Below are positions 8,424 through 12,607 of a DNA stretch of 21,264 nucleotides, one piece after another. The notes under the pieces were generated by a model, which had not been told where the DNA came from, searched no databases, and worked only from the letters and a program-made list of their open reading frames with translations. The stretch is from IMG/VR virus record IMGVR_UViG_3300037240_000245, positions 1 through 21,264 of that record; one strand, written 5' to 3'. Positions within the stretch are counted from its first letter, which is position 1. Each line of letters opens with the position of its first letter. The position numbers were made by a program, and so were the translations under genes. Source of the stretch: a virus.

Positions 8424-10151
8424 ATGGCAGACACAGGCAGAGGGGCTTGGCCGCTGCGCTCCGACTGGCTGTTCTACGGCGGGCAGCAGCTGTGGCCGGG
8501 CGTGACCTTCACCAACGCGGGGAACGGCTCGCCGACGAAGGCGGTGTTCGTCGACTGGTTCTTGCCGGCGCCGGTGTTCACGGTGACGGCCAACGCGTAC
8601 TCGCCGTTCGAGTCGCTCGCGACGCAGCGCTCCGACCCGCCGCACCAGCTCGAGGCCAGGGGGCAGCTGACGCTCGACCGCGCCCTGCCGCTGGACACGA
8701 CCGTCTCGGTCTCGACGGACAGGGCCGGGCCGCTCGAGTCCCCCGCGACGCAGCGCGCGGACCCGCCGCAGCAGCTCGAGTCGTACGGGCAGTTCAAGCT
8801 CGACCGCGTCCTGCCGCTCGACACCACGGTGTCGGTCTCGACGGACAGGGCCCAGCCCCTCGAGTCCGCGCTGACCGCCCAGCGCGACGGGCCCGCGCCG
8901 CTCGAGTCGAAGGGCCAGGCCTCGTCCGACGCGACGAGCCCGCTGGAGACGGTCGGGCAGGCGACGCTGGACAGGGCCTCGCCCTTCGAGTCCAAGGCGT
9001 CGCAGTCCAAAGACACGGGCGCGCCGCTCGAGTCGCAGGCCTCGCAGAGGTCGGACCCGCCGCAGCAGCTCGAGGCGACCGGCCAGCTGACGCTGGACCG
9101 CGCCCAGCCGCTCGAGGCGACCGGCCAGCTGACGCTGGACCGCGCCCAGCCCTCCGAGTCGAAGGCGCAGCAGACGGCGGACGCGGCGCAGCCGCTCGAG
9201 TCGCCGGCGCAGCAGACCAAGGACGCGGCGCAGCCGCTCGAGTCGCAGGCCTCGCAGAGGTCGGACCCGCCGATGCGGCTCGAGAACACGGGCGTCACGG
9301 CAGTCACGCTCGACGGGATGGCCCCGTTCGAGTCGCTGGCCTCGCAGCAGCGCGACTCGGCGCAACAGCTCGAGTCCAACGCGCGGCAGCAGGCGGACTC
9401 GGGGCAGCAGCTGGAGGCGACCGGCCAGCTGACGCTCGACAGGGCGCAACCGCTCGAGGCCACGGGGCAGCTCACGCTGGACAGGGCCGGGCCCTCCGAG
9501 TCGAAGGCGTCGCAGCAGCGCGACTCGGCGCAACAGCTGGAGTCCAAGGCGCAACAGTCGGCGGACGCGGGGCAGCAGCTCGAGTCGCAGGCGCAGCAGA
9601 AGGCGGACGCGGCGCAGCCGCTGGAGGCGACCGGGCAGGTGGCGCTGGACAAAGGTGTGTCGCTGGAGTCGCTGGCCTCGCAGAGGTCGGACTCGACGTC
9701 GCCGCTGGAGTGCGTCGCGTCGCTGAGGCTGGACGTCAACGGCCTGGTGGAAGTCGTCGCGTCGAGCGGCCGGGCGTTCACCGCCCCGCTCGAGTGGACG
9801 GCGCGCGTGGTCGCGGACTTCCTCTCGCAGCTCGAGTCCATAGCGGTCTCGAACATAGTGGTCTCGGACGGCTCGGCGCCCGTGGAGTGGCTGGCCGGCG
9901 TCAGGACGGACGCGGCGTCGCCCGTCGAGGCGTTGCTCAGCGTGCTCGCGAGGGCCCCGATGGGGTCCGAGGAGACCGGCTTCGTGCCGCCCACCCCGTC
10001 CGGCCGCGTGCTGGACCCGGGGGCGGTCGTCAGGGGGCTGGACCCCGCGGCCTCGGCGAAGACGCTGAACGCGGCGGCCGTGGCGAAGACGCTCAGCGCG
10101 GGCGGCGTCGTGAGGGTGCTGGCGCCGGCGAAACAGAACAGGGTACTTTGA
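8424..10151 (+). CDS. Large tandem-repeat virion protein (14-residue repeats)
   Basis: Three regions are seen in the 575-residue product. Residues 1-58 are a Trp/Phe-rich head (RSDWLFYGGQQLWPG). Residues ~59-513 are about 32 tandem 14-residue units of the form PLESxASQxxDxxQ or QLEATGQLTLDRAQ. The last ~50 residues switch to a 9-residue repeat (RVLDPGAVV, RGLDPAASA, KTLNAAAVA, KTLSAGGVV). P/Q-L-E at the start of each unit and alternating small polar and aliphatic residues suggest a repetitive extended or solenoid fold, as in fibre shafts or spacer proteins. TAGGA precedes the ATG. Related PxEWLA-type repeats occur in phage tail proteins. Repeat number could vary by recombination of the 42-bp units. 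Confidence 0.75.
   Translation: MADTGRGAWPLRSDWLFYGGQQLWPGVTFTNAGNGSPTKAVFVDWFLPAPVFTVTANAYSPFESLATQRSDPPHQLEARGQLTLDRALPLDTTVSVSTDRAGPLESPATQRADPPQQLESYGQFKLDRVLPLDTTVSVSTDRAQPLESALTAQRDGPAPLESKGQASSDATSPLETVGQATLDRASPFESKASQSKDTGAPLESQASQRSDPPQQLEATGQLTLDRAQPLEATGQLTLDRAQPSESKAQQTADAAQPLESPAQQTKDAAQPLESQASQRSDPPMRLENTGVTAVTLDGMAPFESLASQQRDSAQQLESNARQQADSGQQLEATGQLTLDRAQPLEATGQLTLDRAGPSESKASQQRDSAQQLESKAQQSADAGQQLESQAQQKADAAQPLEATGQVALDKGVSLESLASQRSDSTSPLECVASLRLDVNGLVEVVASSGRAFTAPLEWTARVVADFLSQLESIAVSNIVVSDGSAPVEWLAGVRTDAASPVEALLSVLARAPMGSEETGFVPPTPSGRVLDPGAVVRGLDPAASAKTLNAAAVAKTLSAGGVVRVLAPAKQNRVL
8598..9962 (+). repeat. 42-bp coding tandem repeat array (~32 units)
   Basis: The DNA repeats with a 42-bp period in phase with the 14-residue protein repeat. 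Units vary, but adjacent pairs such as those encoding EATGQLTLDRAQP (9071-9150 and again 9413-9490) are nearly identical. This suggests recent slippage or gene conversion within the array. Confidence 0.85.
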
Positions 10152-10152
10152 T

Positions 10153-10437
10153 ATGACTCTCAGCATACAGCAGACCCCGAACGAGCTGCAGGACTGGACC
10201 ATAAACTGGGCCACCCGCGGCCTCGGCGCGGACACCATCACCACGAGCGCGTGGGCCGTCAACTCGGCCGACGTGGCGCTCAGCGACGCGGCGGAGACCG
10301 CCACGACGACGACCATCTGGGTCACCGGCGGCATACCGGGCAACGCGTACAGCATAACGAACACGGTGGAGACGGCCGGCGGCCGCACGCTGCAGGAGAC
10401 GGTGACCTATGTCTGCATACCCGCCGAAGACAACTGA
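10153..10437 (+). CDS. Phage fibre-tail adaptor-like protein
   Basis: The 94-residue protein starts MTLSIQQTPNELQDWTINW and runs through GADTITTSAWAVNSADVAL, TTTIWVTGGIPGNAYSITN and ETAGGRTLQETVTYVC. The order D-W-x-I-x-W, then D-T-I-x-x-S-x-W, then WVTGGxxGxxYxIxNxVxTxxGR is that of small Ig-like phage proteins annotated as fibre-tail adaptors. It follows the 14-residue-repeat protein, so it may dock it on the particle. Its 3' end overlaps the large terminase start by 29 bp, and the terminase ribosome-binding site (GGAGA) lies inside it. Confidence 0.75.
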   Translation: MTLSIQQTPNELQDWTINWATRGLGADTITTSAWAVNSADVALSDAAETATTTTIWVTGGIPGNAYSITNTVETAGGRTLQETVTYVCIPAEDN

Positions 10438-12607
10438 CCTGGACGACCTCTCCTGGCTCGACGAGGACATAGAGCGCGTCGACGCGGAGGTCGCCAAGCG
10501 GGCGCTGCAGGACGCCAAGTACGACTGGGTGAAGACGGCCAGGCCCGACCAGCTCCCGCCGGATTGGGACTGGGTCTACTGGCTCATACTCGCGGGCCGA
10601 GGCTACGGCAAGACCCGCACGGGCGCCGAGACGGTGCGCGAGTGGGTGAAGAAGTACGAGTACGTCAACCTCATCGGCGCCACGAGCGACGACGCGCGCG
10701 ACATCATGATTGAGGGCGAGAGCGGCATCCTGGCCGTCTGCCCGAAGGACGAGAGGCCGACGTACCTGGCGCACAAGCGGCAGCTGCGGTGGCCGAACGG
10801 GGCGAAGAGCCTCATATTCACGGCCGACGAGCCCGACCGGCTCCGCGGCAAGCAGCACATGAAGCTGTGGTGCGACGAGCTCTGCGCGTGGCGCTACCAG
10901 GAGTCTTGGGACCAGGCGAAGTTCGGCCTGCGCCTCGGCGACGCGCCCCAGGCGGTGCTCACGACGACGCCGCGGCCGACGAAGCTGCTGAAGCAGATAA
11001 TGAACGACAAGCGGACGGCGCTGACGCGCGGCCGCACCATAGACAACAAGGCCAACCTCGCCCCCGCCTTCCTCGAGGCCATCACGGCCCGGTACGAGGG
11101 CACGAGGCTCGGCAGGCAGGAGCTGAACGCGGAGGTCCTGGAGGACAACCCGGGCGCGCTGTGGAAGCGCGAGCTGATAGACGCCACGCGCGTCCCGCTG
11201 GACAAGCTCCCGGCGATGCGCCGTATAGTCGTCGGCGTCGACCCGAGCGCCACGGCGAACAAGGACAGCGACGAGTGCGGCATACTCGTGGTCGGCCTGG
11301 GCGTGGACGGCCGCGGCTACGTGCTCGAGGACGGCTCCGGCGTGATGACCCCCGACGAGTGGGGCAAGCGGGCCGTCGCCCTCTACCGCAAGTGGAGCGC
11401 CGACAGGATAGTGGCCGAGACGAACAACGGCGGCCTCATGGTGGAGAACACCATCAGGACCGTCGACAGGAACGTGCCCTACAAGGGCGTGCACGCGGCC
11501 AAGGGCAAGATGACCCGGGCCGAGCCCGTGTCCGCCCTGTACGAGCAGGGGAAGGTCAGCCACGTCGGGCTGTTCAACCAGCTCGAAGACCAGATGTGCT
11601 TCCCGGCGGGCACGATGGTCGAGACGCAACGCGGCCCGGTGGCCATACAGGACGTCGCGACGACCGACTCGGTGCTGACGCGCTCCGGGTACGCGCCGAT
11701 CGACTGGGTGGGCATCACCGGCGAGACGGACAAAATAAACTGTGTACTTTACTCGCACGATGTAGTATTGTCTACGCCATGCCACCCGATATATTCAGTC
11801 TCCCAGTCGAAGTTTGTGCCTGCCCAGAGTGTTCTGCGTGGGGAGAGCCTGCTCGCGCTCCGCAGAGGAACAAGCGGGGCCACTGGCCCGTCGCGTGGCG
11901 AGGGAGATGGTACGGGAGAGACAAGAGGGGGTACTTCAGGCACGCCAAGGGAGAACTGCTCAGCCGCGCTGTCTACGAGGCGCACCACGGGCCTATCCCT
12001 GAGGGCTATCAGGTCCATCACAAGGACGAGAATCCCGGCAACAACGCGCCTGACAATCTTGAGGCGCTTACTCGCAAGCAGCACCACGCGAAGCACGGGC
12101 CGCGCGGTTGGGACGCTTTCACGCCTGCTCAGCGGTCGGTCAGCCGCAAGAAGGGTTGGGCCAACAGAGAACCTAGGACTTGCGAGTGCAGGGAATGCGG
12201 AACACGGTACACCACAATCGGGATGCGGGAGAGCTTCTACTGCTCCCGTTCTTGTCAATATCACGGTTCGAAGCGCTGAGCCGATCCAAGTATACAACCT
12301 CAGAGTGAAAGACGGGTACGAACACGAGTTCTACGCGAACGGCGTGCTCGTGCACAACTGCGAGTACGACCAGAAGACGTCGAAGTACTCGCCCGACAGG
12401 ATGGACGCCCTCGTGTGGGCGCTCACCGAGCTCATGGTCGAGCCGCTCCCCGGCCAGGGCTACATAGACCTCTACAAGCAGCGGGCCGACGAGGCCCGCG
12501 CTAGGAAAGCCGGCGCGCCCGACGCAGCGCCTGGCGAACCGCAGCTGGGCGCCCCGCCGTCGCCCGTTGCCAAGGCCAAGTTCTGCGTCGTCACAACCAA
12601 CCACTAA
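10409..12607 (+). CDS. terL: Terminase large subunit precursor containing an intein
   Basis: The precursor has 732 residues: 396 of N-extein, a 254-residue intein and 82 of C-extein, giving a 478-residue mature ATPase-nuclease of usual length. Motifs are Walker A GRGYGKT (63-69), Walker B WCDE (154-157), a coupling motif LTTTPRP, and an RNase H-like nuclease with VGVDPSA (Asp278), VAETNNGG (Glu337) and SPDRMDALVWAL (Asp666 of the precursor). The intein separates the nuclease acidic residues, so splicing should be needed for DNA cleavage. The extein junction LEDQM/CEYDQ matches the uninterrupted family sequence. The start overlaps the upstream gene by 29 bp with GGAGA ~10 nt before the ATG. 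Ile codons in the exteins are mostly ATA. Confidence 0.93.
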   Translation: MSAYPPKTTDLDDLSWLDEDIERVDAEVAKRALQDAKYDWVKTARPDQLPPDWDWVYWLILAGRGYGKTRTGAETVREWVKKYEYVNLIGATSDDARDIMIEGESGILAVCPKDERPTYLAHKRQLRWPNGAKSLIFTADEPDRLRGKQHMKLWCDELCAWRYQESWDQAKFGLRLGDAPQAVLTTTPRPTKLLKQIMNDKRTALTRGRTIDNKANLAPAFLEAITARYEGTRLGRQELNAEVLEDNPGALWKRELIDATRVPLDKLPAMRRIVVGVDPSATANKDSDECGILVVGLGVDGRGYVLEDGSGVMTPDEWGKRAVALYRKWSADRIVAETNNGGLMVENTIRTVDRNVPYKGVHAAKGKMTRAEPVSALYEQGKVSHVGLFNQLEDQMCFPAGTMVETQRGPVAIQDVATTDSVLTRSGYAPIDWVGITGETDKINCVLYSHDVVLSTPCHPIYSVSQSKFVPAQSVLRGESLLALRRGTSGATGPSRGEGDGTGETRGGTSGTPRENCSAALSTRRTTGLSLRAIRSITRTRIPATTRLTILRRLLASSTTRSTGRAVGTLSRLLSGRSAARRVGPTENLGLASAGNAEHGTPQSGCGRASTAPVLVNITVRSAEPIQVYNLRVKDGYEHEFYANGVLVHNCEYDQKTSKYSPDRMDALVWALTELMVEPLPGQGYIDLYKQRADEARARKAGAPDAAPGEPQLGAPPSPVAKAKFCVVTTNH
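11597..12358 (+). mobile_element. TerL intein (254 residues)
   Basis: Precursor residues 397-650. Block A is CFPAGTMVETQRGPVAIQDV with Cys1. Block B is STPCHPIYS, giving the TxxH motif (T60, H63), followed by FVPAQSVLRGESLLA, the usual strand after block B. Block F is VYNLRV then HEFYANGVLV, and block G is HN followed by Cys+1. All residues needed for class 1 splicing are present. Splicing-domain parts add to only ~125 residues, the size of a mini-intein. The ~130 residues between them (about 89-218) are low-complexity Arg/Ser/Thr/Gly with no endonuclease motif in this frame. G+C drops to 29/60 at 11761-11820 against 43/60 at 11101-11160 in the N-extein, which supports separate ancestry. Confidence 0.93.
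11779..12279 (+). CDS. HNH homing endonuclease nested out of frame inside the TerL intein
   Basis: In the -1 frame relative to terL, ATG 11779 to TGA 12277-12279 encodes 166 residues. Residues 40-106 read WRGRWYGRDKRGYF, LLSRAVYEAHHGPIPEGYQV, HHKDENPGNNAPDNL and then KQHHAKH. This is a full HNH_3-type ββα-metal core with the HH dyad (80-81), NN (88-89) and NL (93-94). A C-terminal CECREC...YCSRSC (135-159) resembles a small zinc ribbon, and N-terminal CACPEC may be a second metal site. The ORF overlaps the DNA of intein block B at its start and stops just before block F. No Shine-Dalgarno is evident before the ATG, so how it is translated is unclear. It probably cuts intein-less terL alleles to spread the intein. 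Confidence 0.88.
   Translation: MPPDIFSLPVEVCACPECSAWGEPARAPQRNKRGHWPVAWRGRWYGRDKRGYFRHAKGELLSRAVYEAHHGPIPEGYQVHHKDENPGNNAPDNLEALTRKQHHAKHGPRGWDAFTPAQRSVSRKKGWANREPRTCECRECGTRYTTIGMRESFYCSRSCQYHGSKR

Follow-up and report, generated by a model that had tools for sequence, protein, structure and literature searches.

The window analysed here is a viral record of 21,264 bases derived from a metagenome (IMG/VR record IMGVR_UViG_3300037240_000245); the terL and HNH features described below all lie on its plus strand. A single open reading frame of 732 codons (10409-12607) encodes the large terminase subunit (TerL) as a continuous precursor made up of N-extein, intein and C-extein. In profile searches of this ORF, Terminase_6N/6C, the Hint N-terminal profiles and the TIGR01443 intein C-terminus all matched in one frame and in that order, in agreement with the original prediction that the terL frame is open throughout and carries the intein blocks. 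The intein extends from Cys1 to Asn254 (11597-12358) and is followed by Cys+1, the first residue of the TerL C-extein (12359-12604), which aligns with the TerL proteins of Strzyga and CRP-6. Excision of the intein restores an alignable TerL: when joined in silico, the exteins align over the junction with a TerL that has no intein, that of Brevundimonas phage Strzyga, the window reading LEDQM before and CEYDQ after the junction and Strzyga reading LEDQMCEFTAD, as befits the precise insertion of an intein. Elsewhere in the window, positions 8424-10151 hold an ORF of 575 amino acids composed mostly of short repeats (variants of QPLEATGQLTLDRA); the other frames and the opposite strand also carry long ORFs there.

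The N-terminal Hint half, with blocks A and B (11597-11860), matches the PT-HINT and Hint_2 profiles, and the C-terminal half, with blocks F and G (12278-12358), matches TIGR01443. All splicing residues are present in the intein frame, namely C1, T60-x-x-H63 of block B (T60 at 11774-11776 and H63 at 11783-11785), H253, N254 and C+1, with C1, H63 and N254 invariant among 48 inteins; the host frame thus supplies a Hint domain with its nucleophile, the block B TxxH, the C-terminal HN and the +1 residue. AlphaFold models the Hint fold of the intein confidently, with pLDDT above 93 over the N half and above 90 over most of the C half, and in a structure search the model matches solved inteins and bacterial intein-like domains. 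Between the halves lies a stretch of low confidence, corresponding to a linker (11861-12277) that contains 0 stops in the intein frame. The alignments used for structure prediction omitted rows from the named phage records.

A second gene overlaps the intein in the -1 frame (offset +2 relative to TerL). This ORF encodes a putative HNH homing endonuclease of 166 amino acids (11779-12279), with an ATG at 11779 and a TGA stop at 12277-12279, and matches HNH_3 (PF13392) with an E-value of 2.5e-17; all intein and HNH coordinates of the original prediction, including the separate start and stop in the -1 frame, proved correct. The original prediction had placed the HNH over the linker. It does overlap the linker, but its ATG sits in block B (T60-x-x-H63) and its first ~27 codons overlap the back half of the N-terminal splicing domain, so that part of the folded Hint domain is also double-coding. 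An N-terminal CxCxxC motif (C13, C15 and C18; 11815-11832) falls in this shared segment. The HNH_3 match covers the catalytic core (residues 61-103; 11959-12087), where the region of H80/H81 and N88/N89 is conserved in an alignment of HNH proteins, and a C-terminal module (12187-12255) contributes the zinc-binding cysteines C137, C140, C155 and C159. Across 49 HNH proteins C137, C155 and C159 are invariant and C140 is at least 90% conserved. The ORF has the catalytic core with conserved His and Asn and the zinc-binding residues of an HNH_3 protein. AlphaFold models it with a mean pLDDT of 85.

The arrangement is not unique to the phage of the window. A tblastn search with the HNH found HNH genes on the annotated terL of Tetrasphaera phage TJE1, and the same overlap on terL of Rhodobacteraceae phage LS06-2018-MD07 and Acinetobacter phage Highwayman; each of the three has a Hint intein in the TerL frame and an HNH in the +2 frame. 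TJE1 and Highwayman are isolate genomes. In Highwayman (40% GC), two frames are open and the third contains stops throughout. A scan of IMG/VR that started from the HNH, taken with the earlier loci, yielded 59 loci with an HNH nested out of frame within an open intein at offset +2, 2 nested at offset +1 (L048 and L102), 14 split inteins whose halves flank an HNH gene, 23 HNH genes for which no Hint was detected, and no in-frame HNH. Starting instead from the Hint domain, so that the HNH was not selected for, we obtained 79 loci, 69 of them nested at offset +2 and 9 HNH-less mini-inteins, again with no in-frame HNH among the 79. A genome collection was scanned with a profile from a four-sequence HNH alignment, the alignment of 49 HNH proteins being too diverse; its 48 loci included 12 nested, 10 split and 1 in-frame. 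That single in-frame HNH intein (L210, from an Armatimonadetes MAG) is the only one found, and its HNH is a more distant relative. In all, there are 142 nested loci, 120 of them distinct at 90% nucleotide identity, with intein GC contents from 29 to 64%; 118 of the 120 have the HNH at offset +2 and 2 at offset +1. The search for close relatives with the HNH in frame thus returned about 120 distinct out-of-frame loci against one distant in-frame case, and nesting is the common architecture, and no exception, in the Hint family sampled here. Across the nested loci the HNH starts near the end of the Hint N half and stops near the start of the C half, and so occupies the usual endonuclease position of inteins.

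The nearest relative of the window element (L115) has its intein at the same TerL site and a nested HNH 42% identical to that of the window, which likewise has an ATG in the block B region and the N-terminal CxCxxC. The motif is common to four further loci (L029, L036, L056 and L068), in which the HNH lies inside inteins whose exteins differ from those of the window; three of these four have in common the end of what is apparently a portal protein gene. This HNH subtype seems to move among host genes. More generally, most of 47 host N-exteins match terminase families, and 4 of the 47 match a portal family. A phage nucleotide search for close relatives of the window returned extein matches only, a plasmid search gave one weak HNH match, and we found no near-identical phage pair with and without the intein that would mark recent homing.

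We propose that the TerL frame would be translated into a single continuous precursor in which the Hint halves associate and carry out cis-splicing, the stretch between them forming an unselected, disordered loop constrained only to stay free of stops. Translation of this DNA in the -1 frame, beginning at an internal start codon, would yield the HNH homing endonuclease as a second protein; by cutting intein-less terL, this enzyme would cause the whole composite DNA, intein plus HNH, to be copied. To this reading, in which a cis-splicing precursor and a separately translated HNH home as one piece of DNA, we assign a probability of about 0.86. The two frames, each with intact catalytic residues, the start codons of the HNH, the selection on the HNH and against stops in the intein frame of relatives, and the recurrence of the arrangement can be read directly from the sequences; from these we infer splicing, HNH production by internal initiation, and homing. 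The original prediction of an uninterrupted precursor with an overlapping, separate endonuclease is likewise supported by about 120 distinct relatives.

Internal initiation can be weighed against programmed -1 frameshifting, which would yield a TerL-IntN-HNH fusion and leave the endonuclease attached to the N half of the intein. The prevalence of the -1 frame, in 118 of 120 distinct loci, is what such a mechanism would produce, and the HNH frame of the window stays open for a long way upstream of the ATG. The -1 bias need not be mechanistic, however, because fewer stops are expected there by chance, about 3.8 per locus in the -1 arrangement compared with about 14 in the other frame; chance stops alone would give the bias. 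In 99 of the 102 nested loci whose HNH match is long, a start codon lies near the start of the domain (ATG in 87, GTG in 12); the other 3 have neither ATG nor GTG near it. A stop in the HNH frame lies no more than 30 nt upstream of the start codon in 79 of the 99, a Shine-Dalgarno sequence of at least 4 nt precedes 38% of HNH starts compared with 14% of control start codons, and a slippery heptamer occurs where a frameshift would need one in only 4 of the 102. These patterns favour independent internal initiation over frameshifting in producing the HNH, and we regard a frameshift fusion as improbable. For the window copy, the ATG at 11779 has no clear Shine-Dalgarno sequence, which makes the mode of initiation the weakest link in the proposal there.

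In 114 loci, the segment covered by the HNH contains 0 stops in the intein frame, whereas 436 ± 15 are expected from synonymous reshuffling of the same HNH proteins with locus-specific codon usage; the third frame contains 1812 stops compared with 1612 expected. This count presupposes that the intein is one ORF, a requirement absent from the scan that started from the Hint domain, and in that scan every locus with both Hint halves and an HNH was continuous. In HNH genes without an intein and in split loci, the equivalent frame mostly contains stops, especially where AT-rich. For the three pairs of relatives close enough for dS to be unsaturated, more distant pairs being left out owing to saturation, dN/dS is 0.15-0.27 in the HNH frame, 1.1-1.3 for the linker in the intein frame and 0.14-0.49 for the part of the Hint N half outside the overlap, compared with 0.05-0.07 for the exteins of the closest pair. 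Given these ratios and the stop counts, the HNH is a protein under selection among the relatives and the linker is nearly unconstrained except for the avoidance of stops, much as the phrase 'accidental linker' in the original prediction had suggested. Such avoidance makes sense if a continuous precursor is needed.

The same data bear on the possibility that the HNH frame is decaying or already dead, which would make the intein effectively a mini-intein that happens to have a long loop. Relatives of that kind do exist: HNH-less mini-inteins of 128-153 amino acids occur in the same Hint family (L108, L109, L113, L123-125, L133, L139 and L140), as do short relics with only the tail of the HNH (L110, L111 and L153). 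Yet the catalytic and zinc-binding residues are conserved over the 49 HNH proteins, the HNH frame is under purifying selection, and nested loci outnumber mini-inteins by 69 to 9 in the sample drawn from the Hint domain, so that a dead HNH is quite unlikely, slightly more so than a frameshift fusion. Two compensating sequencing or assembly errors that moved an in-frame HNH out of frame, conceivable for a record derived from a metagenome, are ruled out because the frame relation recurs in the TJE1 and Highwayman isolates as well as in about 120 distinct loci drawn from many assemblies, and both frames avoid stops. Taken together, the comparisons of relatives show, as far as sequence can, that the overlap of two coding frames is genuine, is kept up by selection and occurs widely among environmental viruses.

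The cis-splicing precursor with its overlapping HNH may also be related to the other forms recovered. At L021-L024, L062 and L097, TerL is apparently split by the intein, with the halves on separate ORFs and an HNH gene between them; these include Lactobacillus phage CL2 (L021), Vibrio phages 1.238.A and 1.245.O (L022 and L023) and Brochothrix phage BL3 (L024), and the databases present the parts as distinct genes, some of them truncated. The split loci have the appearance of inteins in which stops entered the linker. The three short inteins with HNH-tail relics keep just the C-terminal zinc-finger tail, in the -1 frame, and are likely deletion products on the way to mini-inteins; on sequence grounds, mini-inteins (L108, L109 and L124) and tail relics (L110 and L153) look like products of loss. 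The two loci with the HNH in the +1 frame of an open intein (L048 and L102) may point to more than one origin, or shift, of the nested arrangement. Deep branches of the HNH tree are weakly supported, so that any number of origins or direction of change is tentative.

We consider it reasonably probable that these loci constitute a widespread and previously unrecognised class of dual-coding homing element, an intein with a stably overlapping, out-of-frame endonuclease gene, in which selection preserves a working enzyme in one frame and requires of the other merely that it be free of stops. A stop arising in the linker of such an element may convert it into a split intein. Such an element would add a further intein architecture to the in-frame, mini and split forms, one in which splicing protein and homing enzyme share DNA and not a polypeptide, so that each protein could be separately translated, regulated, lost or replaced. 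It would also offer a possible origin for split inteins whose halves enclose a free endonuclease. In practical terms, phage terminases annotated with a long, odd insert can conceal an unannotated endonuclease, and the roughly 120 distinct loci form a natural set of overlapping genes in which one frame is selected for its amino acids and the other, as tested here, only against stops.

Among known systems, fractured genes, reportedly described by Dassa et al. in 2009, are split inteins whose halves flank a free endonuclease gene. There, as in the window, the endonuclease is a separate polypeptide encoded between the intein halves, and the 14 split loci found here carry the same HNH family as the nested ones; in the window, by contrast, both intein halves lie within one continuous ORF (10409-12607), which the endonuclease gene overlaps, and the intein is thus not split. 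Nor is it a mini-intein, given the HNH gene in the other frame, whose relatives are conserved and under selection. Canonical full-length inteins carry their endonuclease in frame, as do the TerL inteins of mycobacteriophages (PMC5050341), which share with the window their location in TerL, Hint blocks A, B, F and G, and an endonuclease between blocks B and F; in the window, the endonuclease is in the -1 frame and outside the precursor polypeptide. The nearest solved relative of the HNH is I-HmuI (PDB 1u3e; profile E-value 1.5e-4, fold E-value 1.5e-3), which is encoded by a phage group I intron and is not nested in an intein, with a TM-score of only about 0.37.

Of the published elements we came across, the ShiLan domain comes closest (PMC11855218): it is an HNH encoded out of frame within a phage methylase gene, and its authors detected no splicing domain there. 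Like the window element, it has a zinc-finger HNH lying at the same offset (+2) in a host gene that stays open, and it has a disjunct distribution that suggests homing; in a 12 kb stretch, its HNH ORF matches the HNH profile built here with an E-value of 1.5e-10. One further locus (L002), missed by the C-terminal profile, has an HNH nested in the -1 frame of what resembles an intein in a DNA methylase-like gene and is a possible link to the ShiLan element. The window shares with ShiLan the out-of-frame HNH and the open host frame, but differs in that its HNH lies inside a complete Hint intein with all splicing residues and in that its host gene encodes TerL and not a methylase.
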